Below are positions 21,236 through 64,000 of a stretch of DNA of 64,000 nucleotides, one piece after another. The stretch is from Narthecium ossifragum (taxonomy: Eukaryota; Streptophyta; Magnoliopsida; Dioscoreales; Nartheciaceae). The notes beneath the pieces were generated by a model. The model worked only from the letters and a program-made list of their open reading frames with translations. It was not told where the DNA came from and made no database searches. Position 1 is the first letter of the stretch; every line of letters begins with the position of its first letter. Location: positions 9,173,096-9,237,095 of the forward strand of contig OY986969.1 in NCBI GenBank assembly GCA_963920575.1. The letters are read 5' to 3'. The position numbers and the translations under genes were made by a program.

Positions 21236-23620
21236 CCTAGGGATTTGGGCCCGTGGCTCGTTGTGGACCGCAAGGGTAATTTGGGAAATTGCGTCTTGTC
21301 AGTTTGTTTCACACCCGCGTGTGTACACACAGCCTTTGATTGATGATTGGGTTTAAGTAGATCCGTTTAGGGGGTTTTTGACTTGTGAATCGATCCAAAC
21401 TAGTGTTGGATCGATCCAGCCAAGTCTTGGATCAATCCCTCTTGGTCTTGGATCGATCCGGGTACTGTAGCAGAGCAGTTGAGCTTGCGAGGATGGCCGT
21501 CGTGGCTGTCGCTCTCCGCTGTCAGAGGAGAGACGACTTCCTCTCCTCTCCTCCCCTTTTCCCCTCCTTCCTTGGCCTTCCCCCTCACTATTCTTCCTCT
21601 TCTCTTCCTCTTCTCTTTCCCCTCCTTCTTCCTTCCTTCTTCTTCCCGCGGGCTCTGTTTCCCATGTTCTGGCAGCCCCTTCTTCTCCTCCTTTCTCCCT
21701 ACTCCGGCCACCGTTTTGGGAGCTTGAAGGCTCGTTCGATCCGTGGCGGCGTGAGGAAGATCCTTGACATGGTTTGGGGCTGGGTTGGTGACTGTTTAGC
21801 GGGGAATCAACCGAGTGCGTTTCTGGTAGGTGTTCTACCTACGAGAGTTGTTTAGGGGTGTTCTCTTGATCTAGCCGTTAGATCTTGCTGTTCTTTGTGT
21901 TGTTGGATGCATGTTGCTTAGTATAATTTCTGGTTTAAGCTTCATGAACTTTGGTTGAGATTTTAGTAGGATTTATGCATGTTAAACTCGGATTTTTTCG
22001 GTTTCTCTGTTCTTGAGGAACAGCCGGTTTACGGCGCGTTTTCCGATTTGTACAAGCATGATATTGACTTATTATGCACAGGAGAGTTGTAGATCTCTGA
22101 GTTATCTTTCCATTCCAGCTTATTTCGTATTTTTCTGATTTTTCTACGAATTGTGATGATTGTTCTCGTGGCCTGCGACGAGACTAATCTGAAGCTGGTA
22201 TGAAGCTGTTCGGATCGATCCAAATGTTTTGGATCGATCCAATGTTTTCTGGATCGATCCAAATATTTCGGATCGATCCCAAAGTTTTTTGATGGAGTTT
22301 TATTGACCATTTTTAGTGATTTTGATTAGTGTTTTCCCAGTAACCGAACCGTTGGATGTTTCCCGATTTTGGATATGTGGATCCCAGCATGTAGATCTAC
22401 TAAAATCTAAGTTGGATCTCGAATCCGACGTCGTTTGGATGTCAGATCGATGGGGTCAACTAGCTGCTATGTAGAGAATGTTTTGGTGTGTTAAATATAA
22501 TATTATATGTTTGGATTATAATATTATATTTTACTATTCATCGCGGTTTTCGGGGTTGCTTCCCGTTGCAGGAGTTCACGGTTAACGGTCGTGGTACCGT
22601 CGTAATGCCGGGACCCGCTGCGGATCGGCTAGCAGCGGTTGGTAGTATCGCTGCAACGATCCAGTTGGACTTGTATGCTGCCTTGTCATACTGTTGCATG
22701 CTTATTTCTCTTACTTGTGTATTTTCATAGCATGCATTCTCTGTTGTGCATTAGTTGCATGGTTAGGACGTGGGTGATCTGTGGGTCGCCGTCCCAAGGC
22801 TGGAAGCTCGGATTTAGCCCTAGGACCGGGGTTGGGTAGCTTGGTCCAGGTTCAAATTGTGGTGTCCAGTCAAACTTGATGATAGGCTTAGATGACTGGT
22901 ACACATGTTGCTTGATGATTATAGAGGTCGTGTCGGCCTTGAGTCAGATGCTGAGGTGTAGCCCGTGTTCCACTGTATTGACCCTTGAGTAGAGAGGTTG
23001 ACTACTTAGCGGTGCTTTTTCCCGCCTGCAGTGCCGTTCCCTGCATGTGGGCCAGCAGTGTTGTTTCCTGCTACTGAGTGTGACCAGACATGTGACCAGC
23101 TCGGCTGGAAGACCATGATCGTGGGCCTCAGGGACACGCGGTTGGGGTTATGGGGCCCATGTGTACACCCAGGTCTTACTTGAGGGCGACACTCTTGTGT
23201 TCCCCTTCCTTCTGTGTGGCGTAGTGTAGAACCCTACTGAGCTTTATGCTCACTCCTACCCGGGCTGTGTTTTGCAGGTGCAGGCGCCAGCTCTTCTTCA
23301 GTAGCCCCTACCGGGCAGGTGTTTGGTGGCGCGGCGGCGTCTGGCGGGGTCTGAGGATCGGTGATCACTTTCTACACTTTTTGTTATAGTTAGTCTCCTA
23401 CGGGAGTATGATGTATAAACTGTTGTAACCCCTTTGAGGTTTTGGAATATTATATTATATCTATTGAGGTTTGAAATTATTGTATTATTCAGGGGTGCTT
23501 ATGAACTGTTTAATGAAACCAGTAGGCTAAAGGGAACCCCTCGCTATTATTTCCGCATTTAGTTAGGTTCCGGTTCGCGTCGCCCGGCCCGGTTGGTCTT
23601 TCACGGGTCGAGGCGCGACA
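21236..23620 (+). repeat. Solo LTR of the long-LTR family (copy A), 5' end slightly eroded
   Basis: It matches the LTR family of 54922-57222 in the same order: GTGGCTCGTTGTGGACC, the CT-rich block, pairs of GGATCGATCC (21393-21458 and four at 22209-22280), GACCGGGGTTGGGTAGC, GGTCGTGTCGGCC and the final TTCCGGTTCGCGTCGCCCGG ending GGCGCGACA at 23620. The first 30-45 bp differ or are missing. LINE ORF1 sequence resumes after it. Confidence 0.78.
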
Positions 23621-24184
23621 GATCCTCTGGGTACGGAGCTAATGCAGGCTGAGACAATCGCTGGCGGGACGGCGAGAGTGGTTGGCTCTGACTCTGCAAC
23701 CCAGGCTTTACAGCTGGAGGAGGGTCTTTCAAATTTTGAAGTGCATGAGGGAGCGGGCGAATTTGATCATAGAGTGCCGGTTCCGGGCGCGGAGGGCTAC
23801 CTGGTTGAACCTACCTTAGGGGGGATACTTCTCTACCTGCTCAACTGGGGTGTGGTTCTCGGGTGGCTGTGTCGTCCCCTTGTCCTCGGGAAGAGCTCTC
23901 CACTACATCCACCCAAGGGGGGATGATGTCCCTGCTGAAGCTACTGTCGATGCCTCTGTCGATGACTCCGGTAACTCCCTGGAAGCCTTCCACCTCCACG
24001 CCCTAGAATCTCTCCTCATCGCCCTTCTTCCCTATCCTACCTAGAACACTGAAGGAGAGGAGGATGCTTGGGACACGGAGTCGGATAACGATGATGAAGC
24101 GGCTATCCGGGGCGTTCGTGCCTTGCCTCTGGCGGTGCAAGGTGGCTCCTCCGCACCCTTGGGTGTGCTCACCATTGTTGATCC

Positions 24185-25384: not shown

Positions 25385-25390
25385 TCTGAG

Positions 25391-29280: not shown

Positions 29281-29286
29281 AAATTC

Positions 29287-30255
29287 TGACACGCCTTGAA
29301 AAGTGTCGTTACCTTAAGAAGAACGCCAAAATTATAAATTTATAATCCGAATCACTAACTAACTACTTAAGGGGTAGATAGCTATGAGTCCGAGTCGGTC
29401 CATAGGGAAAGCAGGATTAAGTATATTCACCTCGTATAGTTCTAAACCAAAAGTTAAGAAGAAGGAATGATAGTTGGTCTTCGAACTACTTTTAACTCGA
29501 ATTAAATTAAATCGGGAGAATAACAATAGGAGAAAAGACTAGGAATTTCTAATCTGTAAGCGAGAGCTATCTAGGCATTCCTAGGATAAGAGCAATTCCA
29601 TAAGTTCTAGTTGGTTTTCTAAGGTTGATAGAAGATCGGCTAGGTCCACTATCACTCAACATAAATTCATTAGAAATCTACGTCGGAACGAAGGTCTAAT
29701 CAGCTGATAATTGGTATGAGAATAATCAAAGTGGTTCTAGCACTTTGAGTACGCCTAATCAATAAAGATAAAGAACGAATTGTAGGTTACAATCGTAGGT
29801 CTTAATGGTTCTAACATTAAGGTAGTGGTTCTAGCACTCCTACAAATCGCCCCTTGGAAAAACGGATCGATCTTCTTTCCACGGCTGAATCGAGTCTCCA
29901 GGTTCGGATCGATCCGACTTGTCTCGGATCGATCCCCTTTGAGCAGTGCTTTTATTTAACTCTCTGTCACACCTACGGCTGGAAAATAGATCGATCTTCT
30001 TGTATTGAGATCGATCTTCTTTGGTTCAGTTGGCCCGCTTCTTGCTGGAATAATAAGATCCATCCCCTTTGGATGTCAGATCGATCTGAGTTGCACAGAA
30101 TTGCCAGAATAGCTTCGTTTTAGCACCAAACTAGACCTAACTTTTGTTGAAGGCTCTTATACCTGAAATGTACCATAAACCATCAAAATAGCATTGCTCG
30201 GAGGCTAACAGGACCTAGTTAAAGGGGCGATTTGTGCACTTTTCACGCGTTATCA
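29287..30255 (-). repeat. 5' LTR of the Athila-like fragment
   Basis: 969 bp. On the minus strand it begins TGATAACGCGTGAAA and ends GGCGTGTCA next to the PBS. It holds six GATCGATC copies at 29864-30090. It differs from the other LTR families in the window. Confidence 0.85.
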
Positions 30256-32381: not shown

Positions 32382-34883
32382 TGTCGCGCCCCGACCCGCG
32401 AAAGCCCAACCGGGCCGGGCGACGCGAACCGGAACCTAACCAACGCGGAAAAAAGAACGACGAGGGTTCCCTCTAACCTATTGGTCTCCCTAGCAATTCA
32501 CCAAAGCACCCTCAAGAAAATACAATATTATATTCAAGCCTCGAACCACAGATTAAAACTCAAAGTGTTGATATACAAATCCTCGGAGAGGGGAAGATTC
32601 AAAATACATCATCACTCCCGTAGGAGACTATCTAACATAGGTATAAAAGCAATAAACGATCACCACCTCTCAAAGACCACCAGGCGCCGCCGCACTGCCA
32701 ACCAACTGCCCGGTAGGGGCCAAAGAAGAAGAACCGACGCCTGCACCTGCAAAACGCAGCCCCGGGTAGGTGTGAGCACTAAGCTCAGTAGGGATCTACA
32801 CTACGCCACACAGAAGGAAGAGGGAAACGCAACAGTGTCGCCCTCAAGCCAGACTCGAGTGAGCTACAATGGTCCCGTTACCATTCACCGGTGATCTCTA
32901 GGCATATCCAACCATGGTCACCCCAACGGACTGGGCCCATCCTGGATACGCCTAGTGTCGTAGGGTTCCAGCTGTGGTCACCTAACTCGCCATGGGCCCA
33001 CACTGATGCCCCTACTGACAGGAATGGACACTGCCCAAATAATAAGACCCGTCACCGGTGGCATCCTCAAGACCTGACTTGAGGCCGACACGACCTCTAC
33101 AATCATCAAACATCATGTGTACCAGTCCTCTAAGCCTATCATAAGATTCGACTGGACACCACAATTCAAACCGGGTCCAAACTACCTAACCCCGGTCCTA
33201 GGGCTAAGTCCGAGCTTCCAGCCTCGGGACGGCGACCCAAGGATCACCCACGCCCTAACCAATGCAACTAATGCACAATCAACAATGCATGCTATGACAT
33301 ACACAAACAGGAGATAGGCATGCAACAGTATGGCAAACATCACATAAGTCTACTGGATCGCTGCAGCGGTACCACCAACCGCTGCCAGCCGATCCGCAGA
33401 GGGTCCCGGCATTACGACGGTACCATGACCGTCGACCGCAGACTCCTGCAACGGGAAGCAACCCCGAAAACCGCTTATGAACAGTAGAAATATAATATTA
33501 TAATTCGACATATAATATTATATTTAAAAACACAAAATGTTCTCTACTAGAGGCTATTTTATCTTGTCGATCCGACATCCAAACGACGTCGGATTCACGA
33601 TCCAACTTAGCCAACAGTAGAGCTACATGTATGGATCAACATATCCAAAATCCAGAATCATCCAACGGTTGGATTTACGGGAAAACGCTAATGAAAACCA
33701 CTAATCAAAACTAACTTTCTAATTAATTGCTGCAATGCAGCCCTCCAGCAAAAAATTCATAAGAAATCATAGAAAAATCGGAAAAATACGAAATAAGATG
33801 GAATGGAAAGATAACGAAGAGATCTACAACTATTGTGTTTATGAAAACCCAAGATATAGTACGTACCGGCCGAAAAACACGCCGGAAGCCGGCTGTTCTT
33901 CAAGAACAGCAGAAAAACAGAGAAACCGAGTTTAATCATGCATAAAACCTACTCAAATCTCAACCGATTAATATGAAACTCAAATCAGTTATTATACTAG
34001 GCAAGATACATCTAATATCAAGAAGATCAATAGATCCAACGGCTGGATCACGCGAAACCCACTTAAGAACACAAGTAGGTAGAAGAACCTACCCAACTGC
34101 GCATTCCTCGGTTGATTCCCCGCGATTTGATCGCCAACAAGCTGCCAAACCACACCAAGAGCCTTCCTCTCGTTGTCACGAATCCAACGAGCCAAAGAAC
34201 ACCCAATTTGGTGGCCGGAGGAGGGAGAACGGAGGGAAAGAAGCTCGCCGGCGGTAAAGGGATGAAACAGAGCACCGCGAGAAAGAGAGAAGGAGGGAAG
34301 AAGAAGAGAAGGAGAAGGAGGAAGAGGAGGGGAAGAAAAGAGGGGAAAGGGGGAGGGGAAAGCCGGGAAAGAGGGGAAAAAGCTGGGGGAAAAGGGAGGG
34401 GAAGACTTCCCTCCCTGACAGGGGAGAGCGACGGCCGACGGCCGTCCTCGCGAAAGAGAAAACCCACCGACTCGAGCATGATCGATCTCCAAGGCATGTG
34501 AGATCGATCTCCTTTGCAATCGAGATCGATCTCCTTGAAATCCAGATCGATCTTCTTTGCAAAAAGGGCCAGATCGATCTCCCTAGCCATCCAGATCGAT
34601 CTCCTTTACTCAGAAAGGCAAACTTGGGCTAAAACACAAGCCCAAGCTCAGATCTTCCGATCTCGGGTTCACCTAGCCATTCTAAACAAACACGAACACA
34701 AGCAAGGCCAGTGTGTGCACACGCGGGTGTGAAACAAACCAACAAGGCACAATTTACGAAATTGCCCTTGTAGTCCAAGAAACAATACGATCCACCGGAT
34801 CGCGCGCTCGACGCGAGGCAAACCAACGAGCCACGGGCCTGACCCAGCCGGTCGACCCAGGAGTAGAGGGACGGGTCCTCACA
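32382..34883 (-). repeat. Solo LTR of the long-LTR family (copy B), duplication GGAGG
   Basis: 2502 bp, TGTCGCGCCCCGACC...GGGTCCTCACA on the plus strand, with GGAGG at 32377-32381 and 34884-34888. No internal region is attached, so this is a solo LTR left by recombination. It has six GATCGATC copies (34484-34606) and a long purine-rich block (34240-34400). Confidence 0.92.
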
Positions 34884-34888
34884 GGAGG

Positions 34889-35451: not shown

Positions 35452-37125
35452 TGATGTCGCTCAAATGTGTCACGCACAGCGGTCGCGGTGCAGTACAACA
35501 TAAGAGAGGTCGAATCCCACAGAGAGACAAGCAGGAAAGATCCAGAAATACAAATAACAATGAATTGAAAACAATCAAGAGCGATAAAAGTTAAGAGAAT
35601 AGATCGAAGATGTAATGGTAAGATAAAGTTAATGAAAGAAATCAAGATTTGAATGAGGCTAGGCTTCTGGAATCACTTCACTCGGATTTGGGTTCTTCTC
35701 TTCTCAATGGTTCATATGATACTCAGTCAAGGGATTCACATCCCAATCGCCTTAACCGGAAGATATAGAATTATGAATCTAACAAAATATATAAATGTCT
35801 CTTCCTACGATTGGTTCTTCCTTTTTATAGTTCTAACTTCATCCAACCAAACCTAAGAATACACGATACCGGCTGTCACTACAGGCAACGCGCAGCAAAA
35901 GTTCATCGGGGCAAAGCCCTAACTCTATCTAACTGGATCTCTAAGAATACACAATACCAACTCTCACAATCGGCAATGCATAGCAAAGATTCCTCGGGAT
36001 AGAGCCCCAACCTTATCTTACAAGATCCCTAAGAATACACAATACCAGCTGTCACTACGGGCAATGCATAGCAAAGGTCTCGCGAGACTCGGTAGGAGAA
36101 TCAAAAGAGATAACTATGGGATCACAATATCATAAAAGAAGCATGACTGTATTTATAATAATGTTTAATCACAAAGCAATCTGTGAAGATCCAATACATA
36201 AGAAGAGTTTAACAATAAAGATTAAAAACTATGAACCATTGTTGGAGAAGAAGCCCTAGTCCTCGCTAGATCATCCGTCCGCCATGCCCGTGGATTACTC
36301 GGCCATGGATGGAGATTCCTTCATCTTCTTCCCTTAGGAAACGTCCAGAAAGAGCCTCCATAAACGTCCAAGAAGTCCCCCTCAAACCCTATAAAGAGTC
36401 CTATTTATAGCCCCAAAGTCTCTCCATCAACGGATTTGATCTAAACCGTTGATTTAATTCACTGGGAACGTCCGATCGATCCTCCTCGGGATGTTGGATC
36501 GATCGGTCTCATTAAAATCTTCAACTTCTATGTACGCCCGAGTCCAATCGATCGAACTATGGGCGCTGGATCGATCGGATGCGTAAAAATCCACCTTCTC
36601 TGGCTATTTTTGAGTCCGATCGATCCAACGATAGGTGCCGGATCGATCGGACCCCTTAAGATGGATGGATGGATCGATCGGACCATGTTCAGCCAAAAAA
36701 TATATGTTCTGTCACGATTCTGTATAGTTGGATCGATCTCAGCAGGGGTGTCGGATCGATCCAACTTTCCACCGTATTACTGTTCTGCCATCCAGACTGC
36801 GCCATCGGTACTAAAATTGCCGTAACTTCCTCTAGGAAACTCGGAATCACGAACCGTAAAATTCTCCAGAATCTAGACTTCAAGAGCTTTCCAACCATGT
36901 ATGGCACAACGTCTGGTTCTTCATGAGCAGGTACATATTAATCTTTAAAGTTGATCCATGCACTCTTTTCAGCTTCTTTTAGCTTCAATTTCCTGCATTT
37001 TCCAAACAACCAAGTGAAGCAACATATAGATATAAAAATAGTAATAAAGATGTTGATTACGGATAATAATCTAACAATTGAGATGGTTATAAAGTTGTTC
37101 AGAGTGCACTTTCTTGCACTCATCA
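35452..37125 (-). repeat. 3' LTR of the Athila-like derivative
   Basis: 1674 bp. TATA box CTATAAATAG on the minus strand (36401-36410). Eight GATCGATC copies at 36471-36767 form paired stem-loops just upstream of it. The adjoining purine tract is at 37126-37135. Confidence 0.92.
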
Positions 37126-38190
37126 CACCCCCCAACCAGCTTATTGCTAGTCTCTAGCAATTCAAAGCGCATAGAATATAATTAAGCACACTAACGGTTT
37201 AAGGATGTAGACATGCATGATAAAAATTCTACCTCATCAAGTCACTAGTGTTTTATACAGTACAGAGCATGAAAACTTCTTATACTCATACACATACTAC
37301 CAACATATGAAATCAACTTCTACACATCAAACATGCTAATCACCATCCAGAAGAACACATGTGACGTGACAAATAAATGTTACGTGCACAAGCAACTTCT
37401 ACCCACCATTAGTCTAAACACACTACTATCTTCATGACCAATCATCCAACCCTCGCACTTTAAGTACAACATGCTCTTTCTGTTTTTTTTTTCAACTATC
37501 AGACATTTTGCCTTTTTACGCGAGCACTCTCCGCTTCTTGAGGCGCAAAGACCCGGTTACTTAGCAAAACACTTAATAGTTTTCTTTTTTTTATCGCTAT
37601 AAGTGGTTCTACCTTTTTACGCGAGCTCCCCGCTTCCTGAGGCAAGAACACCCGGTTACTCAGTAAATCACTTAATAGTTGTTTAGGCACAACTTGATCA
37701 AGCTGCAGAACTTTTTCTCTTTTTTTTTCTCTGCATGCAATACTCAACACTAGCTAATGCTGAAATCATGGTCTAGATTAACAATAGCATGCTCATTCCT
37801 CTGGTAATCGCCACTGCACATAAAGTGTTCGTGTGTGGATCACATGATGTTATACTTTCAGGTTATCATGCATGCAATCAATGTATTGGTCAATTCATAT
37901 GAAATCAACATGCATAATAAGCATAAAAATTTCAGCTCATGTACAATTTCTAGTAACATGCTCAATTCAACACTATTAAACTCAATAAGGTAGCATGCAT
38001 AAGGTCATGCATGCCTACACCCCCAACCTGAAATTCACATTGTCCTCAATGTGTGCTAATCATGTAAATAAGCAGAAGGGTGTTGGCTGAATTTTCATAT
38101 ATAGCATAAATAAAAATTGGAAATCGAAATAGGAGCGAGGCCACCTGACAGAATATCTGAAATCTTGCCCAAGGCTCCTCATAGTGGCCG
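37126..38190 (-). other. 3' non-coding region of the Athila-like derivative
   Basis: No gene. It carries the GGTTGGGGGGTG purine tract (37126-37137) and two copies of the conserved AGTAACCGGGT...GCGTAAAAAGG motif at 37507-37562 and 37611-37662. Confidence 0.7.
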
Positions 38191-38196
38191 AATTTC

Positions 38197-39759: not shown

Positions 39760-41034
39760 ATTTTTGATGTCGCTCAAATGTGTCACGCACAGCGGTCGCG
39801 GTGCAGTACAGCATAAGAGAGGTCGAATCCCACAGAGAGACAAGCAGGAAAGATCCAGAAATACAAATAACAATGAATTGAAAACAATCAAGAGCGATAA
39901 AAGTTAAGAGAATAGATCGAAGATGTAATGGTAAGATAAAGTTAACGAAAGAAATCAAGATTTGAATGAGGCTAGGCTTCAGGTTTCACATCACTCGGAT
40001 TTGGGTTCTTCTCTTCTCAATGGTTCATATGATACTCAGTCAAGGGATTCACATCCCAATCGCCTTAACCGGAAGATATAGAATTATGAATCTAACAAAA
40101 TATATAAATGTCTCTTCCAACTATTGGTTCTTCCTTTTTATAGTTCTAACTTCATCCAACCAAACCTAAGAATACACGATACCGGCTGTCACTACAGGCA
40201 ACGCGCAGCAAAAGTTCATCGGGACAAAGCCCTAACTCTATCTAACTGGATCTCTAAGAATACACAATACCAACTCTCACAATCGGCAATGCATAGCAAA
40301 GATTCCTCGGGATAGAGCCCCAACCTTATCTTACAAGATCCCTAAGAATACACAATACCAGCTGTCACTACGGGCAATGCATAGCAAAGGTCTCGCGAGA
40401 CTCGATAGGAGAATCAAAAGATATAACTATGGGACCACAATATCATAAAAGAAGCATGACTGGATTTATAATAATGTTTAACCACAAAGCAATCTGTAAA
40501 TATCCAATACATAAGAAGAGTTTAACAATAAAGATTAAAAACTATGAAGCATTGTTGGAGAAGAAGCCCTAGTTCTCGCTAGATCATCCGTCCGCCATGC
40601 CCGTGGATTACTCGGCCATGGATGGAGATTCCTTCATCTTCTTCCCTTAAGAAACGTCCAGAAAGAGCCTCCATAAACGTCCAAGAAGTCCCCCTCAAAC
40701 CCTAGAAAGAGTCCTATTTATTGCCCCAAAGTCTCTTCATCAACAGATTTGATCTAAACCATTGATTTAATTCACTGGGAACGTCCGATCGATCCTTCTC
40801 GGGATGTTGGATCGATCGTTCTCATTAAAATCTTCAACTTCTATGTACGCCCGAGTCCGATCGATCGAACTATGGGCGTTGGATCGATCGGATGCGTAAA
40901 AATCCACCTTCTCTGGCTATTTTTGAGTCCGATCGATCCAACTATAGGTGCCGGATCGATCGGACCCCTTAAGATGGATGGATGGATCGATCGGACCATG
41001 TTCAGCCAAAAAATACATGTTCTGTCACGATTCT

Positions 41035-45148: not shown

Positions 45149-46632
45149 TGAATAAATTCCATATCTCACAAGTATACGAATCGGTGTGATCAGTATAGCA
45201 GCAAGACGAGTATCGTACCCACAGAGACTTGTAGAGATTATTAGAGTAAAATGCTAAAGAACATAAAAGAAAGAAAATAAGGAAGGGAAAATAAGAAATA
45301 TGAAGTATCGAAAATAGATGATCTAATAACGAAATAAGAAAACGATGGGAATATGATGGATGAATACTAAGGTTCCGATTTCACCATAACATCCTCATTC
45401 TATGCATTGAATCAATCAAGATCTCAGTTTAATTTCAAGGGTTCGTTCTTCCGGTATGATGATCCGTTTGGCCGCGGTCTTCACCAATTACCCTCAATTA
45501 ACCCTAGTTAATGAACCCATAGTTAAGGGTCAATCAAGAATCCATTAAGCTCTGAAGAACAATTATGAACCAAGAAGTGTCTTAGCTTGAACCCGGCTTC
45601 GACTAAATCTCATTTATTCATAGATCCTGCAAGATTAGGGAATGAACCCTCGCCCAATCTCACATAAAACAATCTATAATACTTCTATTGGCCAGATAAA
45701 GGTATTTAAGATCTCAATATAATAATGAATGAAACAAGAAATATAAACTGATTAAATAAATATGATCCAATAACATAGAATGATTCTGTTAGACTACATC
45801 GGTACCTTAGAGAAGAAACTAGCCACTCATGTTCATCATGAAGGCAATAAAACTAATGAAGAAATAAAGAAGAAATAAGAAAAGAAAACCAAGCCTGGAA
45901 CCCGTCTCCTCTCCTCCAAATGCTGCCAAAAAGCCCCCCTCAAACCCAAGAAAGAGTCATATTTATAGCCTTAATTGTCTCCAACCACGGATTAGATCTA
46001 AACCGTTGATTTTATTCACTGGGAAAGTAGGATCGATCCTTTCAGGGGTGTCGGATCAATCCGTTGCATCAAAATCCTCAATTTCTAGCTACGCCCGAGT
46101 CGAATCGATCCTTCCAGAGGTGTCGGATCGATCTGACTCAGTAGGATGAATAGTAGGATCGATCTAACTCGGTAGAATGGATAGTAGGATCGATCTGACT
46201 GTGATCATCTGAAAAGCATATGTTCTGTAAGGATTTAATTACCGATTCCGATTGATCCCTCTCCAGGTGTGCGATCGATCTGACTCCCTGAGTATTTACT
46301 GTTTTGCCATTCAGACTGCGTCATTGGTACTAAAATTACCGTAACTTCCTCTAGGAAACTCGAAATCTCGAACCGTAAAATTCTCCAGAAACTAGACTTC
46401 AAGAGCTTTCCGATCATATATGGTCCATCATCTGGTTCTTCATGAACAGGTACAGTTTAATCTTTCAATTTGATCCATGTAATCTTTTCAGCTTCTTTGC
46501 TCCTTTTTCCTACATTTTCCAAACAACTATGTGAAGCAACATATAGATATAAAAATAGTAATAAAGATGTTGATTAAGAATAATAATCTAACAATTGAGA
46601 TGGTTATAAGACTGCACTTTCATGCACTCATC
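45149..46632 (-). repeat. 3' LTR of a second Athila-like fragment
   Basis: About 1484 bp. On the minus strand it starts TGATGAGTGCATGAAAGTGC next to a purine tract, and probably ends TTTATTCA at 45149. It is related to the 35452-37125 LTR in its U3 start and in the region around 46290-46450. TATA box near 45959-45970. Five GATCGATC copies at 46029-46287. Confidence 0.8.
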
Positions 46633-47800
46633 AAACCCCCCAACCAGTTTATTGCTAGTCTCTAGCAATTCAAAACGCATAAAATATAATTAAACACACT
46701 AACGGTTCAAGGATGTAGACATGCATGATAAAAATTCCGCCTTATCAAGTCAATAGTGTTTTACATAGTACAGAGCACGAAACATTCTATACTCATGCAC
46801 ATGCTACTAACACATGAAATTAACTTCTACACTTCAAACATGCTAATCACCATCCGGCTGAACACATGTGAGGTGATAAATAAAATTTACATACATAAAC
46901 AACTTCTACCCACCATTAGTCCAAACACACCACTATTTTCCGGACCACTCATCCAACCCTCGCATTTAAACTCCAGCATGCTTTTTTTTTCTTTTTTTTC
47001 TCAACTATCAGACATTTTGCCTTTTTACTCGAGCACTCTCCGCTTCTTGAGGTGCAGAGACCCGGTTACTTAACAAAACACTGAGTAGTTTTTTTAACTA
47101 TCAGTTGTTCTACCTGATTACGCGAGCTCTCCGCTTCCTGAGGCAAGAACACCCGGTTACTCAGTAGATCACTTAATAGTCATTTAGGCACAGCTTGATC
47201 AAGCTCCAGAACTTTTTTTTTTTAAACTGCATGAAATACTCAACATACTAGCTAACGTAGAAATTATGATCCATATTACAATAGCATGCTCATTCCTTTG
47301 ATGAGTATAATTGCCACTGCACATAAAGTGTTCGTGTGTGACTCACATAATGTTCTACCTTCAGGTTATCACGCATGCAATTAATATATAGGCCAATCCA
47401 TATGAAAGCAGCATGTATAATAAGCATAAAAATTTCAGCTCATGCACAATTTAACACTATTATACCCACAAGGTAGTATGAATAAGGTCATGAATGTCTA
47501 CACCCCCCAACCTGAAATCAACATTGTCCTCAATGTGTGCATCGTAAACAATAACATATGTAGGAGGTGGCCATCCAAATTTCCATAGAAAGAGGAGACA
47601 AGATAATGTAAATAAGAAAGAGGCCACATGATAGAGTAAGCGAACATCTCTTCAAGGATCCTCAGGGTGGTTGAAAACCTAAAAAAAACAAAAGAGAAAA
47701 CATAAAACTAAAAATTGAAACTTAAAACAGGTTACCTTGGTGGGTTGCCTCTTACCTAGCGCTTTATTTAACATCTAGGCAAGACGTACTGCAAAGCCTT
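46633..47800 (-). other. 3' non-coding region of the second Athila-like fragment
   Basis: Purine tract complement TCAAACCCCCCAACC at 46630-46644. Two copies of the conserved CCGGTTAC motif at about 47020-47070 and 47110-47165. It is colinear with 37126-38045 and ends in CCCCCAACCTGAAAT-type bases. No gene. Confidence 0.65.
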
Positions 47801-54009: not shown

Positions 54010-57000
54010 TGTCGCGCCCCGACCCGCGTAGGCCCAACCGGGCCAGGCGACGCGAACCAGAACCTAACATACTGTGGAAACTTTGGCAAGGTTTCCCTCT
54101 AATCATAGTGGTCTCCCTAGCAATTCATAATCATTATGTATTAAACATTTAATCACAAACCTCAAAACTGAAATGGAATAATAATACAAATCCTCAACAG
54201 GGTAAGAGTTATACAAATTCTCTCCTGTAGGAGGCTAACTAAACAAAGGGTGTAAATAGATGATCACCGCTCCTCAAGCACCGCCAGACGCCGCCACGTC
54301 ACCAAATGCCTGCCCGGTAGGGGTGACCGAAGAAGAGCTAGCACCAGCACCTGCAAAACGCAACCAGCGTAGGAGTGAGCACTAAGCTCAGCAGGGACAC
54401 TTCATTATGACACTCACAAGGGAGGGAACACAACAGTGCCGTCCCCAAGTCAGACCTAGGTGTATACAAGGGTCCCATAACCCCACCGGGAGTCCGTGAA
54501 TGCAGTTCCAAACACTACATACTCTTAACAGGACACATGACACTCTTTGGCGGGCAAGGACACCACTGGGCAGGCACACCCCCACCCAAGAGTTAAGAAC
54601 ACCGGACACCGGCTACACCTCATATTGAACTTGGAGTCGACACGACCTCTAAACATCAAACCACATGTATTCATGTCATCTAACCCTATCATCGATATCG
54701 ACTGAATGACTGAATACTACAAATTGAGTCCTGGACCAAGCTACCCGCAACGGTCCTAGAGCTAGATCCGGACTACCCGAAAGCCCTGGATCGGCGATCA
54801 ACCTATCGTCAGTGTCGTACTCCTATGCAGCTAATGCACAACACAATGCATGCCATGATCATGCGTAGGGTAATACAGGTAAGCATGCAATAGTATGTGA
54901 TGGTACATTAAACAAGGTCTGTGTGAGGACCCGTCCCTCCCCTCCTGTGGCTCGCTATGGACCGCAAGGGCAATTTGGTAAATTGCACCTTGTCGGCTAG
55001 TTCCACACTCGCGCTTGTACACACACTGACCTTGTTTGTGGTAATGTTTGCTTAGGATGGTTAGTGGGACCCGGGATCGAAAGATCCGGACTTAGGCTTG
55101 AATTCTCGCCTAAGTTTAGCTTTCAGCACACAAACGATCGATCCTCTCTAGCTAAGAGATCGATCCTCTTGTGCCAGAAAGTCAAGTGAGATCGTCATGA
55201 GGTGATCGATCCTTCCTTGGGTAAGGATCGATCCTTCATAGGTCGGTTCGTTTGCCTATAAAGCAGACGAACCTTCTTCCCTCAAATCCTTTTGGAAACC
55301 CGGCGATTTGAGCTCGGATCTTGGGATTTTTCGAAGGCGTTGAGGACGATCCAAGGCCTAGCTGCTTGGATCTAAGCTGCGTTTGCTCCGGTAGGGATCC
55401 TACCGACATCTCTCTTCGGGGTTTTGAGTTTTCCGGTTTGATCTGTGGTTTAATGCTTAGATCTTGTGATTAGCATGTTGGTTTCTTGTGTTTTAACCGG
55501 GTTTGGACTCGTGGGATCCTGATCTATCAGATCCCAGAGTTTCGTGGTTTTTGGTTGTCTCTTCCGGCGGTATTCTTCGCCGGAAGGACTCCGCGGAACC
55601 CATCATGATCGATCTTCCCTTGAGGAAGGATCGATCTTCTGGGTTGGTCATGCTCCGCCCGATGAAGGATCGATCACGAGCTTGGTGAGGATCGATCCTG
55701 GTTCTTGGGGAGCATGGCTGTCCTTCGTCGCGAAGAGGATCGATCCCCCTGTGAGGAAGGATCGATCACTCGTGGTGCGATCTGAAGGGTGCTCTCTGTC
55801 GCGAAAATGATCGATCCTCCTGAGAGGAATGATCGATCCTTTTGTCTCGACAGTGAGGCTTTACTCTCTGTTGCTGAGAGGATCGATCCTACCCTAGGGG
55901 ATGATCGATCCTTTGGTAGAAGAGAGGGTTTTGACTAGTTTTGCCCAAGGGGCTTTGTATGTTGGTTTTCTTTATTGTTTTATACCTTGTACATAACATT
56001 AAGCATGTTAGCCCTATATAGGGGCAGTGGTGAACCGGGGGAGTGATGACTCCCGGGATGTTTAGAATAAACGGGCGGGTGGCCCTACTGCTTTCCCTAG
56101 CCTCTCACGCCGGCGTTCGCCGAGGGCCACATTACTTGTTGCACATTGTGAACTGTTGTTTGCGGGGTTGTTTCCCGGTGCAGGTGTTGTGTGGACTGCT
56201 GGCGGTTGGTAGTGGTACCACTGCAGCAGTCCTTAGACCTTATTTATCTGTTCACCACCCCGGGCCGGCAGGGTGCCGTGCCCAGACCTTGTATTTATAT
56301 CATCACATCCTGCTGCATGCTTACATGTATCTTTTCTGCGCATGTTCATAGCATGCATTGTGTTGTGCATTAGTTGCATCTGTTAGGGCGTTGCCGATCC
56401 GGGGCTTCCGGGTAGCCCGGATCTATCTCTTAGGACCGTGCGGGTAGCTTGGTCCAGGACTCGATTTGTAGTATTCAGTCTTTTCGATGATAGGGTTAGT
56501 TGGACATGAATACTGTTGTGCTTGATGTTTAGAGGTCGTGTCGGCCTTGAGCCAAGTCGTGGTGTAGCCGGTACCCAATCCTTCTAGAACTCTTGGGTGG
56601 CAGGTGTGACTACCCAGCGGTGCTACCCGCCGACAGTGCCCAGGATCATGTCGTGAGTTGGCAGTGCCGTTTCCTGTCTTACTGAGTGTGACCCAGTGTG
56701 TGACCAGTTCGCTGGAAGACCACGACTGGGGCTCTCAGGGGTATCCGGTGGGGTTATGGGACCCCTGTGATACACCTAAGCTTTGCTTGGGGACGACACT
56801 GTTGTGTTCCCTTCCTTTGTGAGTGTCGTAGTGTAGTGTCCCTGCTGAGCTTAGTGCTCACACCTACCCGGGCTGCGTTTTGCAGGTGCTGGCGCTAGCT
56901 CTTCTTCGGTTGCCCCTACCGGGCAGGTGTTCGGTGACGTGGCGGCATCTGGCGGAGCTTGAGGAGCTGTGATCTGTCCGTGTACACCTTGGTTAGATAG

Positions 57001-57916
57001 TCTCCTACGGGAGCGATTTTGTATAACATTCCCTGTTTGAGGATTTGTACTATATTCCAGCTTTGTGTGTTGAGCTTTATAATTGTTGTCTATTACATGA
57101 TGATTATGCTTATTAGGGTAACCACTACGATTAGAGGGAAACCTCGCCAAATTTCCGCAGTAGGTTAAGTTCCGGTTCGCGTCGCCCGGCCCGGTTGGGC
57201 CTACGCGGGTCGGGGCGCGACAGTCTGGGCACGGCACCCTGCCGCCCCGAGGTGGTGAACAGGTAAGTAAGGTATAGGAGCTGCTGTAGTGATACCACCA
57301 CTAACTGCCAGCAGTCCACCACAACACCTGCATCGGGAAGCAGCCGCACAAACAACAGCTCACAGATATCACAGTTAAAGCCCTCGGCGCACGCCGGCAT
57401 GCAAGGGTAAAGAAAGTTGTAGGCCTACCCACCCGTTTATTCTAAAGATCCCGGGAGTTATCACCCCCCCCGGTTCATCACTGTCCCTATTATAGGGCTA
57501 ACATGCTTAACATATGTGCCAGGTATAAGACGGTAAGAAAACCCGTCATACAAAGCCCCGCGAGCAAAAGCCACTTCAAAACACCCATCAACCACTAAGA
57601 GATCGATCTCTCTTCTAGAGAAGATCGATCTTCTTAGTGCTTGGGAGAAAACTCATCCCTATCAACCGAAAGAAATCGATCTTCTCCACCAGAGGGATCG
57701 ATCTTCTTCATGACATGGAACTCGCCATACCGGCCTAAGCAAGGATCGATCTCTTCCAACCGAAGGATCGATCCTGCTCGGGCTGGGCCCGACGCCCCAC
57801 ATGCTAGGGATCGATCTTTCCTCAAGGGAGATCGATCCGAATGGGTTCTCCGGCGGCCGGACGGCGAGAAATACCGCCGGAAAACACAACCAAACCCCCC
57901 AAAACTCTGGGATCGA
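54010..57916 (-). repeat. LTR of the long-LTR family (copy C), split by copy D and cut by copy E
   Basis: Parts 54010-54921 and 57228-57916 on the minus strand start TGTCGCGCCCCGACCCGCG on the plus strand and follow the family order. The copy is interrupted by copy D (54922-57222). About 600-700 bp of its U3 end is missing at 57916, where copy E begins. Seven GATCGATC copies lie at 57600-57840. Confidence 0.85.
54922..57222 (+). repeat. Solo LTR of the long-LTR family (copy D), duplication GTCTG
   Basis: 2301 bp, TGTGAGGACC...GGCGCGACA, with GTCTG at 54917-54921 and 57223-57227. The host sequence AACAAGGTCTGGGCACGG is restored when it is removed. TATA box CCTATAAAG at 55255-55263. GATCGATC pairs lie both upstream (55134-55236) and downstream (55606-55913, ten copies). 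Confidence 0.95.
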
Positions 57917-60095
57917 TGTGAGGACCTGTCCTTCTACATCTGTGGCTCATTGTAGATCACAAGGGCAATTTGGTAAATTATGCCTTGTCGACTTGTTTCA
58001 CACCCGCGTGTGCACACACTGACCATGTTTGTGGTAATGTATGACTAGAATGGTGCGTGGGATCCGGGATCGAAAGATCCGAGCTTAGGCTTGAGTTCTT
58101 GCCCAAGTCTAGCTTTCTAGACAAATCGGATCGATCTTCTTTGGTTAAGAGATCGATCTCCTTGTGCCAGAAAGTCAAGCTGTGATCGTCATGAGAGATC
58201 CCCTCATAAGTCGGTTCGTCCGCCTATAAAGCGGACGCATCGGATTTCTTTGAATCCTTTTGAAATCCGTGGATCTTGAGCTCAGATCTGTTGATTTTGA
58301 AGGAGTTTGAGGACGATCCAAGGCCTAGCATCTGGGATTGAAGCTGTTATTGCTTAGGTAGGGATCCTACCTACAATCTTTTGAGTTTTTAGAGTTTTTC
58401 CGGTTTAATTGTGATCTTTTTCTTAGATCCGTTAAAATACATGTTTGTTTTCCATGATCTCACTAGTTTCGGACTCGTGGTTCCTTATTCTACCAGATCC
58501 CAGAGTTTTGGAGGTTTGGTTGTGTTTTCTGGCGGTATTTCTCACCGTCCGGCCTCTGGAGAACCCATTCGGATCGATCTTCCTTGAGGAAAGATCGATC
58601 CCTTGTGGGGCGTCATGCCTAGCCCGAGCAAGATCGATCCTTCGGTTGGAAGAGATCGATCCTTGCTTAGGCCGGTATGGCGAGTTCCATGTCATGAAGA
58701 AGATTGATCCCTCTGGTGGAGAAGATCGATATCTTCCGGTTGACAGGGACGAGTTTTCTCCCAAGCACTAAGAAGATCGATCTTATCTTCTCTGGAAGAG
58801 AGATCGATCTCTTAGTGGCTGAGGGGTGTTTTCAAGTGGCTTTTGCTCGCGGGGCTTTGTATGACGGTTTTCCTTACCGCCTTATACATGGCACATATGT
58901 TAAGCATGTTAGCCCTATAATAGGGGCAATGGTAAACCGGGGGGGTGATAACTCCCGGGATGTTTAGAATAAACAGGTGGGTAGCCCTACAATTTTCCTT
59001 AGCCTTGCATGCCAGCGTGCGCCGAGGGCTTTAACTGTGATATCTGTGAGCTATTGTTTGCTGGGCTGCTTCCCGATGCAGGTGTTGTGGTGGACTGCTG
59101 GCAGTTGGTGGTGGTACCACTGCAGCAGCTCCTAGGCCTTACTTACCTGTTCACCACCCCGGGCCGGCAGGGGCCGGCAGGGTGCCGTGCCCAGACCTTG
59201 TTTAATGTACCATCACATACTGTTGCATGCTTACCTGTATTACTTTGCGCATGATCATAGCATGCATTGTGTTGTGCATTGGCTGCATATGAGTATGACG
59301 CTGACGATTGGTTGATCGCCGATCCGGGGCTTTCGGGTAGTCCGGATCTAGCTGTAGGACCGTTGCGGGTAGCTTGGTCCAGGACTCGATTTGTAGTATT
59401 CAGTCGATATCGATGATAGGGTTAGATGACATGAATACATGTGGTTTGATGTTTAGAGGTCGTGTCGACTCCAAGTTGAATCTGAGGTGTAGCCGGTGTC
59501 CGGTGTTCTTGACTCTTGGGTGGGGGTGTGCCTGCCCAGCGGTGTCCTTGCCCGTCAAAGAGTGTCCTGTGTCCTGTTGAGAGTCTGCAGTGTTTGAGCT
59601 TGCGTTCACGGACTCCCGGTGGGGTTATGGGACCCTTGTATACACCTAGGTCTGACTTGAGGACGGCACTGTTGTGTTCCCTCCATTGTGAGTGTCATAG
59701 TATAGTGTCCCTGCTGAGCTTAGTGCTCACTCCTACCCTGGCTGCGTTTTGCAGGTGCTGGCGCTTGCTCTTCTTCGATCGCCCCTACCAGGCAGGCGTT
59801 TGGTGACGTGGCGGCGTCTGACGGTGCTTGAGGAGCGGTGATCATCTACTTACACTCTTTGTTTAGTTAGCCTCCTACGGGAGAGAATTTGTATAACTCT
59901 TACCATGTTGAGGATTTGTATTATTATTCCATTTCAGTTTTGAGCTTTGTGATTGAATGTTTAGTACATGATGATTATGAATTGCTAGGGAGACCACTAT
60001 GATTAGAGGGAAACCTCACCAAAATTTCCACGGTAGGTTAGGTTCTGGTTCGCATCGCCCGGTCATATTGGGCTTACGCGGATCGGAACGTGACA
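57917..60095 (+). repeat. LTR of the long-LTR family (copy E)
   Basis: 2179 bp, TGTGAGGACC...GAACGTGACA, plus strand. TATA box CCTATAAAG at 58223-58231. Eight GATCGATC copies at 58128-58166 and 58569-58808. It follows copy C head to head, with no duplication at 57916, and is followed by GAGTG, which resembles GACTG left of copy C. Confidence 0.9.
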
Positions 60096-60696
60096 GAGTG
60101 CATTGAAGGTTGCAGCAACAACAGCTGCTGCTGATGGTGCAACAGCATTTACCTTCCTCTATCTCTTCCTTATAGACTTCCTTTTCTCTTTATTCTTTAT
60201 CTGCATAAAATCTTTGACATCCTCTTCACCATATTTTTGACCCATCTTCTCTTCTTCGAAATTAGCATTATTTTCTATTGCCTCCAAATTTCTATCCTTG
60301 GACTCTTCCTTCATATCTCCTTTCTCCACCTTTTCAGCTTCAGAGATGATAGCATTTATGGCTGCTTCCTTATCATCATTTTTAGTCTCCGCCAATCTGC
60401 TTCCCGACACAACCATGGTCGTTTCTACGGCTACCACTTTTCCATCTTTGACTTCTTTCACCTGGATCTCCTTTCTCAAATTTTTTATGTTCAGGAACGA
60501 AGCCAAGAGATACTGTTTCTTCCTCCCCATCATCCCTGATCAAGATGACATCATGCATTGTTGCTTCCTTCACATCGTTTTTAGCCTCCGCAAATTCGCT
60601 TCTCAATACAACCATATTCTGTGGTGCTGATTTTTCCATGCAGTCAAAAGAAGTCTGGAGCTGGTCAGATGCAAAAGAACCCGTGGAAAACACCAA
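60096..60696 (-). pseudogene. Repeat-module reading frame, N-terminal part (function unknown)
   Basis: A minus frame from ATG 60696 reads DCMEKSAPQNMVVLRSEFAE, then AKNDVKEATMHDVILIRDDG and EHKKFEKGDPGE. After a one-base shift near 60470 it continues VKDGKVVAVETTMVVSGSRL, AETKNDDKEAAINAIISEAE and KVEKGDMKEE, then an acidic/Lys-rich part ending SIRKR and, past a TAG, NAVAPSAAAVVAATFNA. MVV-S-AE-KND-KEA and EKGD occur twice, so this is an internal duplication. Low complexity, charged, no known domain seen. It starts just inside the right inverted repeat. Confidence 0.45.
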
Positions 60697-62103: not shown

Positions 62104-63243
62104 AGATCTTTAACTCCCGGTCAACTCTTATCCAGTGGGCCCAAGAAGTCGGAAGGCAGGATGGGCTTGTAATTGTGATCAAACACTCCCAGACGGGTGG
62201 AAATAAAAAGCCAAGGCTCATCTTGGCATGTGAGCGCAGTGGCGAATACAGAAACACAGCAAAGTACGGAGTGAATAAGCATGGGATAGATATTAAGGGC
62301 CGAAAAATTAAGAAGAGAGATACCAGTACAAAGAAATGTGGATGCCCATTCAGACTTCAGGGAGTGAAGCTCTCTACTGCCGACGAATGGATGTTGAGAG
62401 TGACATGTGGGGTGTACAATCATCCAAGTGCACGTAATTTGGAGGGGCATTCGTATGTTGGTAGGTTATCCTCCGAAGAGGAAATTATGACGGTTGATTT
62501 GTCATGAAGTTTAGTGAAGCCAAGAGAGATATTGAATACTATAAAGCGGAGAAATCCTCATAATGTCTCGACGATGAAGCACATATACAATGCACGGCAA
62601 AAACATAGAGTTGTTGAGAAAGCGGGGAGATCAGAGATGCAGTCTCTCTTGCCCCATCTGAATGATAGTGGGTACGTGGAGTGGCATACAAGCAATGATT
62701 CTTCCTTTTGCGTCCAGAGCATATTCTGGGCACACCCTTCATCTGTGGAGTTGTTGCGTGCCTTTCCGGAGGTCCTCATCATGGATTGTACGTACAAAAC
62801 AAACAAGTATCGACTCCCGCTTCTAGAGATAGTTGGAACTACATCAACGGGTCTCACATTTACATCGGCCTTTGCATATCTTCATTCTGAGTCGAAGTCT
62901 ACCTTTGTTTGGGCACTAGATAAGCTGAAGAGCTTGATGGATGGGTGTATGCAGCTGCGCGTCATTGTGACAGATAGAGACTTGGCATTGGTTGATGTTG
63001 TGCACCATGTCTTCTCGACTGCTAAACACATGCTATGCAGATGGCACATCAGCAATAACATCATGGTCAATTGCCGTAAGATGTTCGAAACATTGGATAA
63101 GTGGAATTCATTCATGTCTTGCTGGCAGCTTGTAGTAGAGTCCCCTACCGTGGAGAAATATATTGAGAATGTGCAGTTTATGGAGCGCACTTTCTTCGCA
63201 TATCCAAATGCCATTGCATATCTCAAGAATTCATGGCTGAATG
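62104..63243 (+). pseudogene. MULE transposase (FAR1/mudrA-like), broken and truncated
   Basis: Cuts and moves Mutator-like elements. The N-terminal FAR1/WRKY-GCM1-type zinc region reads SRSTLIQWAQEVGRQDGLVI, ACERSGEYRNT, KKCGCPFRLQG and VTCGVYNHPSA (C-C-H-H). An in-frame TGA at 62505-62507 interrupts EEIMTVDLS/SLVKPREIL. The MULE core follows: VLIMDCTYKTNKYRLPLLEI (first catalytic D), SAFAYLHSESKSTFVWALDK, RVIVTDRDLALVDVVHHVFS (second D) and HMLCRWHI. It ends at NSWLNV, where an LTR copy has inserted (63244), so the last catalytic E is beyond the insertion. An AG at about 62102 could be the exon start. The frame is otherwise open. Confidence 0.9.
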
Positions 63244-64000
63244 TGTGAGGACCTGCCCCTCTTTTTTTTCCCTTTGGCTTGTTGTTGACCCAAGGGCAAT
63301 TTGGGAAATTGCGCCTTGGCGGTCGTTTCACACTGGGTGTGCACACACAGACCTTGGTTAATGCTTGTGTTTGCTTAGAAAGGTTAGGTGGACCCGAGGT
63401 TGGGGGTTCTGGACTTGGGCCTGTGTCCCAGCCCAAGTTTGCCTTTCAGGGCACAGAAGATCAATCCCCTTGGGGTGGAGATCGATCCTGTTGGCTAGCA
63501 GGATCGATCCCGCATGCATGGAAGATCGATCCTCATGTGCCTGAAAGTCGTTGGCGGTGGCTTTCGAAGGACGGCCACGGCGATGGCCGTCGCTTCCCCT
63601 GTCAGGGGAGGGGAGACTTTTGCTCCCCTCCTTCGCCTTTCCCCCGCCTTCGCCGGCTTTTCCTTGGCCTTACCCCCTTCCCCTCCTCCTTCCTTTCCCT
63701 CTCTTCTTCCTTCTCCTTCCTCGCGAGAGCTCTGCTTCCCCTGTTTCCGGCTGAGAGCTTTCGCTTCGCCGTTCTCCCTCTTCCGGCCACCGTTCTTGGA
63801 GCTTGAAGGCTCGTTGGAACCGTGACGGCGTAAGGAAGATCCTAAGTTAGGCTTCGTAGATCGAAGCAGCTCTGAGGAGGTAGGGTTCTCACTCAAAGAC
63901 TCCCGCTATTTTTGAAGGGTTTGAAATCCGGGTTTTGTTTTGCTTAGATCTCCTTGTGGAGTTGATATTTTTCGGTTTTGAAGCCATGAGTAGCTTCGGG
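63244..64000 (+). repeat. LTR of the long-LTR family (copy H), running off the window
   Basis: It starts TGTGAGGACCTGCCCC inside the MULE transposase and follows the family: GGGCAATTTGGGAAATTGCG, GTGTGCACACACAGACC, three GATCGATC at 63479-63533, the CT-rich block 63600-63730 and GAGCTTGAAGGCTCGTT. The 3' end is outside. Confidence 0.9.

Follow-up and report, generated by a model that had tools for sequence, protein, structure and literature searches.

The 64,000-nt stretch of Narthecium ossifragum DNA analysed here (the window) raises the question of why one palindromic octamer, GATCGATC, is repeated in arrays inside the LTRs of several retrotransposons. The exact octamer was found 72 times, compared to a mean of 1.22 and a maximum of 5 in 100 dinucleotide shuffles, close to the count of about 70 against one expected by chance made in an earlier sequence-only reading. 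The second-ranked palindromic octamer was present in 9 copies. As that reading also stated, the octamers were confined to LTRs: all 72 were located within ten array-LTR intervals (19,604 bases) and none in the remaining 44,396 bases. One-mismatch versions of the octamer were found near the exact ones. The array is not obligatory, as had been proposed, since the LTR at 50326 and the LTR-like sequence at 1511-2934 have no octamers. The finding of one octamer, clustered and often arranged in hairpin pairs in several LTR groups, suggests a shared control element. The LTRs and their arrays are as follows.

21246..23621, + strand: LTR A, group I, identified by self-similarity to B, D and E; end ..GCGACA
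21409..21458, + strand: array A-up, 2 exact octamers and decayed copies in 21-bp steps
22213..22278, + strand: array A-down, 4 octamers in 19-20 bp steps; the relative B has no octamer here
29287..30254, - strand: LTR T29 (the 29287 LTR), group III, inside an array-less LTR
29865..30086, - strand: array T29, 6 octamers
32384..34884, - strand: LTR B, group I, identified by similarity
34480..34601, - strand: array B, 6 octamers
35453..37126, - strand: LTR T35 (the 35452 LTR), group II, 3' LTR of the element at 35453-43513
36474..36761, - strand: array T35, 8 octamers, ending 64 bp from the TATA box
39765..43513, - strand: LTR T39 (the 39765 LTR), group II, 5' LTR with an insertion at ~41034-43101
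40787..40992, - strand: array T39, first part, 7 octamers
43117..43147, - strand: array T39, second part, 2 octamers
45149..46634, - strand: LTR T45 (the 45149 LTR), group II, U3 in common with T35, R/U5 different
46031..46280, - strand: array T45, 5 exact octamers, ending 63 bp from the TATA box
54922..57222, + strand: solo LTR D, group I, target duplication GTCTG
55136..55233, + strand: array D-up, two pairs; the TATA box follows after 23 bp
55607..55910, + strand: array D-down, five hairpin pairs, one per 61-72 bp
57223..57914, - strand: part of LTR C, group I; the other part is 54006-54921
57601..57837, - strand: array C-down, 7 octamers
57915..60098, + strand: LTR E, group I, identified by similarity
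58129..58158, + strand: array E-up, one pair; the TATA box follows after 66 bp
58572..58809, + strand: array E-down, three hairpin pairs
63244..64000, + strand: LTR H, group I, identified by similarity and cut by the window end
63480..63531, + strand: array H, 3 octamers in 22-bp steps

The families had been described as otherwise dissimilar. This did not hold for LTRs A, B, C, D, E and H, which form one related group (I; ~68-92% identity over hundreds of bp in a self-comparison), for T35 and T39, which are both LTRs of one element (97.6% identity, target duplication GAGGC on either side, integrase coding between them in 38200-39213), or for T45, which shares with that element the U3 and the 3' internal part (80% over 1.7 kb) and not the R/U5. 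What remains of the description is that the array LTRs of the window belong to three flank-unrelated groups (I, II and III). The T29 LTR is nested in an LTR of the same array-less group as 50326, and next to it is what we take to be a primer site of the TGGCGCC type. Paired LTRs or target duplications were identified for T35/T39, D and an LTR from a genome sample, L163 (termini TGTTGGG..CCCAACA, flanked by TACTT); the flanks of LTR E contain no matching target duplication, and A, B, C, H, T29 and T45 were called as LTRs by similarity or termini. The gag/pol evidence comes from the T35/T39 element (integrase) and from the genome-sample locus L143, where gag is found beside the array (protease was below the cut-off), and not from group I.

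The excess extends beyond the window. Counting throughout the genome (379 Mb), as the sequence-only reading had recommended, confirmed it: there are 202,613 copies of GATCGATC and 8,576 of a reversed-pattern control. Pairs separated by exactly 22 bp number 33,313 compared to 3 for the control, and pairs with a gap of 4-34 number 94,953 compared to 140. Clustering was assessed in 20 stretches of 10 kb (200 kb; 0.05% of the genome), 6 of which had no octamer. Another octamer was located within 100 bp for 115 of the 122 found. An equal density in non-LTR DNA, the outcome that had been named as refuting the idea, was not observed in this 200-kb sample, where 113/122 octamers had sequence similar to the window's array-LTRs no more than 1.5 kb away.

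The spacing of the octamers is regular. In the window, 33 neighbouring octamers are 19-29 bp apart, most frequently 22 bp. Octamer pairs repeat every ~72 bp, and the 22 and 72 bp steps are alike in flank-unrelated groups. The linkers are enriched in GACAGA/TCTGTC (17/64, 2.4 expected) and in the longer TGACAGA/TCTGTCA (11/64, 0.6 expected). The excess of both motifs speaks for a control module, and the absence of GACAGA from most group-I linkers speaks against one. Since the 22/72-bp geometry and the GACAGA motif are common to groups, more than the octamer is shared. Spacers compared between groups did not match beyond chance except marginally for T29/E (p 0.027), which counts against recent copying and against a transfer of whole arrays between groups. 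Tandem Repeats Finder (TRF) reported arrays A-up, A-down, B, T39 and T45 as tandem repeats (73-89% matches), with a 31-bp unit in T45 and a 72-bp unit in T39 (74% matches); arrays D, C, E, H, T29 and T35 were not reported, and among 16 group-I units the octamers alone were invariant. Among 15 further octamer loci, L002, L005, L019, L063 and L088 are tandem repeats whose spacers resemble one another, and L008 and L010-L012 are not.

If the octamer is under selection, it should be kept while its flanks change. From T45 to T35, identity was 40/40 in the core, 61/118 in the flank and 326/395 in the rest of the aligned stretch (54/56 in the core, with 8 gapped, in the other direction); from E to D it was 45/45 in the core (3 gapped) and 59/112 in the flank. 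The CpG was kept in 6/6 cores from E to D and 3/12 times elsewhere, and in 5/5 cores from T45 to T35 (5/7 in the other direction) and 10/18 times elsewhere. When the octamers were masked before alignment, 5/5 T45 octamers still coincided with octamers of T35 (0.10 expected). In the D/E comparison, 7/14 D octamers came within 3 columns of one of the 8 in E (0.93 expected, p 0.005). The retention of octamers amid changing flanks in both pairs argues for a control module. A conserved site amid variable flanks near a promoter was found in T35/T45 and D/E and not in distant group-I copies, where conservation is weak (B to E core, 18/30), no octamers are in register in A/B or A/D, and those in the same column number 0 in D/B and 1 in D/H.

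The arrays had been said often to end 20-60 bp upstream of the TATA box. The distance in D (23 bp) is within this range, which proved slightly low for T45 (63 bp), T35 (64 bp) and E (66 bp). A distance of 63-67 bp was observed in 7/46 clusters from four flank-unrelated groups (scan p<1e-4; 0.011 when one of T35/T45/L136 and both E and L151 were kept). This recurrence favours a control module. Of the 46 clusters, 15 had a TATAWAD box at most 130 bp away and directed away from them (18.5% at random positions), and it was missing from 31/46; its presence in so few clusters, together with the weak conservation among distant group-I copies, counts against such a module. D and E have additional arrays downstream of the TATA box, a poorer fit to a promoter-proximal site.

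Many octamers come in pairs with complementary flanks. The two stems named earlier, in the Athila-like LTR and in copy E, are present as written, the latter with a one-base bulge. Folding energies of the 33 pairs of the window (-28.45 kcal/mol) were compared with those obtained after swapping arms among pairs (-22.93 kcal/mol); the loss of about 5 kcal/mol corresponds to z -7.8, and 58 pairs from an independent genome sample gave z -9.6. The arms covary at inner positions 1-4 (z 5.8, 5.4, 3.7 and 4.8), with no covariation at inner 5-7, and at outer positions 1-5, so that covariation takes in ~5 bases on the outer side and 4 on the inner side and ends at the loop. Of the 33,313 pairs of the genome with 22-bp spacing, 1,483 had A on the left without T on the right, and 1,410 had T on the right without A on the left. 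The stem-loop geometry is supported by the arm-swap and covariation tests, though 16 group-I units examined ungapped were negative (whole stem 64.8 vs 65.0% shuffled; flanks 50.0 vs 51.5%). Compared with dinucleotide shuffles, 200-base windows with at least 2 octamers had a mean z of -3.53 (n=19) and those without octamers -0.55 (n=295, 5.1% of them below z -3).

Such pairing would be expected if the stems, with their 6-base loop, were functional hairpins in RNA or single-stranded cDNA, selected for packaging, dimerisation, 3'-end formation or replication. The pair-specific arms, the covariation pattern and the folding of octamer-rich windows are all in favour of this explanation, as are the one-mismatch partners retained 23 bp away by 3/5 T45 octamers (those at 46157 and 46188 have none), which make T45 weak support for an octamer working without a pair. 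We nonetheless consider it unlikely. Watson-Crick pairs are in excess in the arms (171 vs 127.4 expected) and sense G.T pairs are fewer than expected (46 vs 57.4 by swapped expectation), so selection on RNA is not favoured and a DNA-level module is. Moreover, the antisense strand folds about as well as the sense, and the T35, T45, D-up and E-up arrays precede the TATA box and should be missing from the 5' leader. Pair-specific folding was not detected in L143 alone (10 pairs, z -0.76), sense-strand folding of the T29 and E-up clusters reached only z -0.6 and -0.5 relative to mononucleotide shuffles, and the ungapped group-I units did not exceed shuffles. Rfam at its gathering score had no matches in the window. 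Thus, of the RNA stem-loop array that had been envisaged, the stem-loop geometry stands, and an RNA-only reading is weakened by the lack of the expected G.U signature.

The reading we favour, which we hold at slightly under an even chance, is that the arrays are promoter-proximal binding modules acting at the DNA level, with the octamer under selection and the arms perhaps homogenised by template switching. It builds on the computed enrichment, clustering, 22/72-bp spacing, octamer conservation in two LTR pairs, arm complementarity and recurrent TATA distance. The functional unit would be the palindrome GATCGATC, commonly in two copies 22 bp apart and recurring about every 72 bp, to which some linkers may add a GACAGA site and which in several groups would end ~64 bp before the TATA box. 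A nuclear protein would read the palindrome as a dimer in double-stranded DNA, and its binding would keep the LTR promoter active. The complementary arms would be made and repaired by palindrome-seeded template switching, a process that can create and repair such hairpins (PMC8794818), rather than by selection on RNA. The dimer-binding enhancer suggested by the sequence-only reading survives in that some arrays are promoter-proximal and more than one flank-unrelated LTR group carries them; its weaker side is that most copies belong to one related group.

The closest precedent is found in the VANDAL transposons of Arabidopsis, where the targets of VANC proteins are arrays of short motifs in non-coding TE DNA (PMC5735166, PMC10398659). 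Related copies there carry strongly differing arrays, and VANC6 motifs are present in an unrelated TE (PMC5735166). The arrays described here likewise repeat one short motif in TE DNA that is non-coding, and vary between relatives. They differ in that they occur in LTR retrotransposons, in three or more groups with unrelated flanks, and in their palindromic motif, often in complementary pairs, with 22 and 72 bp steps. The octamers might be targets of a sequence-specific, VANC-like anti-silencing protein that one element or the host would encode and of which several LTR groups would take advantage; the arrays would then allow the LTR to escape DNA methylation. This reading, to which the array pattern shared with VANC targets and the mostly retained octamer CpG lend some support, appears quite improbable to us; VANC targets are described as tandem repeats, with no mention of hairpin pairs in the portion of PMC5735166 consulted.

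A neutral origin, in which palindromes provoke slippage and template switching, multiply and gain complementary flanks without any function, is given somewhat less credence still. It agrees with the quick turnover of arrays, with the tandem repeats at A-up, A-down, B, T45 and T39, and with the hairpins that template switching generates, whose complementary arms also change together (PMC8794818); in contrast to those hairpins, a fixed octamer is present here in both arms at near-constant spacing. By itself such a process would not hold one octamer near-invariant while its flanks turn over, nor favour one palindrome (72 copies vs 9 for the next), and it leaves unexplained both the TATA distance and why unrelated groups have the 22/72 bp steps in common. 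An assembly artefact was rejected as having practically no chance of being correct: GATCGATC is identical to the MboI Hi-C ligation junction (PMC4556012), but octamers occupy matching places in T35 and T39, two LTRs of one element, and in their diverged relative T45, and they occur in 22-bp steps with one-mismatch versions close by.

A broader and more tentative proposal, which we regard as possible but rather doubtful, extends the binding module to a common retrotransposon promoter code. Tens of thousands of palindrome hairpins with 22-bp spacing on a 72-bp repeat would have been acquired by, or passed between, no fewer than four groups of LTRs with unrelated flanks (Ty3-type, one with Ty1/copia-like termini), one host- or TE-encoded trans factor would activate or de-silence them all together, and the DNA hairpin, kept by arm covariation without G.U, would itself be part of what is read. 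If a single octamer lets one factor act on LTR groups that are unrelated, a single protein could switch the activity of much of the transposon load, and convergence versus exchange of modules between families would be testable within one genome. The 33,313 same-spacing pairs are a large natural data set for weighing selection against template switching in hairpin making.

Type-B ARR proteins were considered as readers, because the AGAT core of their cytokinin-form site, AGATHY (PMC5913131), is also found in AGATCGATCT; here AGATC is followed by G rather than C/T, and AGATCG does not match AGATHY. No such array was found among the matches listed in the literature on the octamer string, on U3 repeats or hairpins and on shared LTR motifs, nor any title on plant LTRs among those listed for the octamer string, and no relatives of the array were found in viral contigs. 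Short sites repeated in the U3 upstream of the TATA box are known from the Tnt1 BII box, the Tto1 repeats and the ONSEN heat elements, each within a single element family. In contrast, the octamer described here is common to several groups and is present in ~200,000 copies in one genome.

The sequence-only reading had estimated about 70 copies of the palindromic octamer GATCGATC, all in LTRs. We counted 72, and 72/72 were within the ten array-LTR intervals, with 0 in the remaining 44,396 bases of the window; shuffled window sequence had a mean of 1.2 and a maximum of 5. The window corresponds to C7:9173096-9237095 of a 379.4-Mb assembly. The reading had proposed a genome-wide count, which gave 202,613 copies of GATCGATC and 8,576 of the reversed, likewise palindromic, control pattern. 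Octamer pairs spaced exactly 22 bp numbered 33,313 versus 3 for the control, and those with a gap of 4-34 numbered 94,953 versus 140. A genome sample of twenty 10-kb stretches (at 2, 6 and 10 Mb of contigs C1-C6 and 2 and 6 Mb of C7) contained 122 octamers, 115 of them within 100 bp of another, and 6/20 stretches had none. Similarity to the array-LTRs of the window was found within 1.5 kb of 113/122 sampled octamers and not for 9. The octamer arrays are real, non-random and genome-wide; they are a novel form of transposable element (TE) motif arrays, not a separate category. In the prokaryotic contigs L019, L063 and L088 (bacteria and one archaeon), GATCGATC also forms arrays, stepped at 21 or 24 bp and with spacers that are nearly identical.

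The window consists of plant transposon DNA, including Ty3-type gag, protease, reverse transcriptase, RNase H and integrase domains (the closest integrase relative among the matches listed is 80% identical), a LINE-type reverse transcriptase and a plant mobile domain (PMD) protein. The reading had described the arrays as shared by unrelated LTR families. This stands for three flank-unrelated groups in the window, but not for A, B, C, D, E and H, which form the single group I in a self-comparison of the window, nor for T35 and T39, which belong to one element, nor for T45, which shares their U3. Group I LTR ends resemble TGTGAGGAC..GCGACA, and these LTRs are presumably Tekay/Del-like. The others are:

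35453-37126 and 39765-43513, minus strand: T35 and T39 (group II), LTR pair of one element, GAGGC at both sides
45149-46634: T45 (group II), shares U3 and 3' internal region with the T35 element, R/U5 different
29287-30254: T29 (group III), located inside the other copy of the array-less 50326 group

T45 looks like a recombinant, having its U3 in common with the T35 element (87-95% in the first 300 bp) and not its R/U5. The 50326 group and group I are distantly related. The former lacks the array, as the reading had noted for the LTR at 50326: neither 50326-53591 nor its relative 27968-32004 has an octamer of its own, and these LTRs are a natural comparison for array function. The window and the genome sample together yielded 36 clusters with at least three octamers, falling into groups of 21, 8 and 4 plus three singles; L136-L140, five of these entries, overlap and represent the same locus. 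Among the loci L155, L161 and L163, only the single L163 was identified as an LTR, a solo TGTTGGG..CCCAACA with TACTT at both sides and termini that we take to be Ty1/copia-like; the exon that precedes it is EamA-like by Pfam (E 2.6e-5) but falls short of the curated cut-off. The L161 and L163 arrays, near 742.9 kb and 748.9 kb of C1, have A-T flanks GATCGATCAT..ATGATCGATC. At the flank-grouping cut-off, their flanks aligned neither with each other nor with groups I-III.

As judged from alignments, the octamer persists amid changing flanks in two related LTR pairs. From T45 to T35, identity was 40/40 in the octamer core, 61/118 in the flanks and 326/395 in the rest; from E to D it was 45/45, 59/112 and 81/144. 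CpGs were kept at 5/5 core sites versus 10/18 elsewhere from T45 to T35, and at 6/6 versus 3/12 from E to D. In the reverse direction, T35 to T45, the values were 54/56 for the core and 5/7 for core CpGs. The flanks changed faster than the rest in T35/T45 and not in the aligned D/E stretch. As an alignment may be anchored by identical octamers themselves, the LTRs were realigned with the octamers masked. All five T45 octamers still coincided with T35 octamers (5/5), and 7 of D's 14 were at most 3 columns from one of E's 8, three in the same column. In the seven other pairings, same-column octamers numbered two in E/B, one each in D/H and B/H, and none in D/B, E/H, A/B and A/D. Arrays are thus retained where the relatives are closer, and older relatives have mostly had theirs replaced.

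Distances between octamers (228 octamers) peak at 22 and 72 bp, with 71-72 bp steps in groups I, II, III and L163. The octamer pair is a predicted hairpin. Among 69 distinct 14-base spacers (the first listed places, all on C1, of the 33,313 22-bp pairs), inner positions 1-4 covaried (z 5.8, 5.4, 3.7, 4.8), forming C-G, T-A and A-T pairs; no covariation was seen at positions 5-7 (z 0.7, 1.0, -1.2). In 31 representatives, 78/124 cells at the first four inner positions were paired versus 43.4 expected (z 6.3). Outer positions 1-5 covaried (z 2.5-5.2) in 51 units of mutual identity below 60%, as did inner positions 1-2 (3.6, 5.1) and, weakly, 3-4 (1.5). Folding was weaker once arms were exchanged between pairs: 33 window pairs had an energy of -28.45 kcal/mol with their own arms and -22.93 with swapped ones (z -7.8; -5.9 for only group I, -2.2 for the T-groups), and 58 independent pairs had -28.11 and -23.01 (z -9.6). 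The compensatory arm changes that the reading had proposed to test for were borne out by covariation and arm swaps, but not by 16 ungapped group-I units (paired flanks 50.0% versus 51.5% shuffled) or by the group III locus L143 alone (arm swap z -0.76). Sense-strand folding of the T29 and E-up clusters (z -0.6 and -0.5) also counts against the hairpin. Outer flanks of neighbours 30-79 bp apart paired with T39 and C kept (p 0.0005 at four bases), and not significantly after these close relatives were dropped.

Within 130 bp, 15/46 clusters had a TATAWAD box oriented away from the array (random positions, 18.5%), and 7/16 array-to-TATA distances fall at 63-67 bp:

Group I: E, 66 bp; L151, 67 bp
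Group II: T35, 64 bp; T45, 63 bp; L136, 63 bp
Group III: L143, 64 bp
L163: 63 bp

The chance of seven distances in any 5-bp bin was <1e-4, and 0.011 for five of 14 when one group-II value and both group-I values were kept. This recurrent distance points to a role tied to transcription. Linkers contained GACAGA/TCTGTC in 17/64 cases versus 2.4 expected and TGACAGA/TCTGTCA in 11/64 versus 0.6; GACAGA-type linkers occur in groups II and III, L155, L161 and L163, and few in group I. In plants, TALE homeodomain proteins recognize sites of the TGACAG type. CTCGGGC/GCCCGAG was enriched in linkers of several groups (8/64 versus 0.4).

The best explanation, which we favor tentatively at close to even odds, would be a promoter-proximal, DNA-level module whose octamer is bound by a putative protein. 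Array folding is strand-symmetric, sense being similar to antisense, and sense G.T pairs are not in excess (46 versus 57.4 expected); with the constancy of the octamer, these observations favor DNA over RNA as the object of conservation. That the paired octamers are themselves functional nucleic-acid hairpins seems rather unlikely. A one-mismatch partner at 23 bp lies beside three of T45's five octamers, so T45 does not show that octamers persist without pairs, which makes the hairpin alternative slightly more likely and the protein-bound module slightly less so. Palindromes could seed template switching and leave complementary arms as a by-product (PMC8794818). Work on VANC targets (PMC5735166, PMC10398659) describes fast-turnover, TE-borne motif arrays that can serve a trans factor, with the target motif also occurring in an unrelated TE.

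A different palindrome with similar spacing occurs at 16036-16226, where ATCGATATCG-like units repeat at 23-bp steps (8.3 copies) in the 3' LTR region of another element with LTR copies near 2942 and 16198; its other LTR copy retains about one unit. Between the integrase and 3' LTR of this element lies an antisense PMD ORF (13851-15209). PMC5418596 reports PMD in Ty3/gypsy elements, and PMC7156037 links PMD proteins to a promoter motif. Finally, LTR T39 carries an insertion at 41034-43101 with ends TAGGGGTGAGC..GCTCACCCCTA and GATTCT at both sides, containing 200 N.
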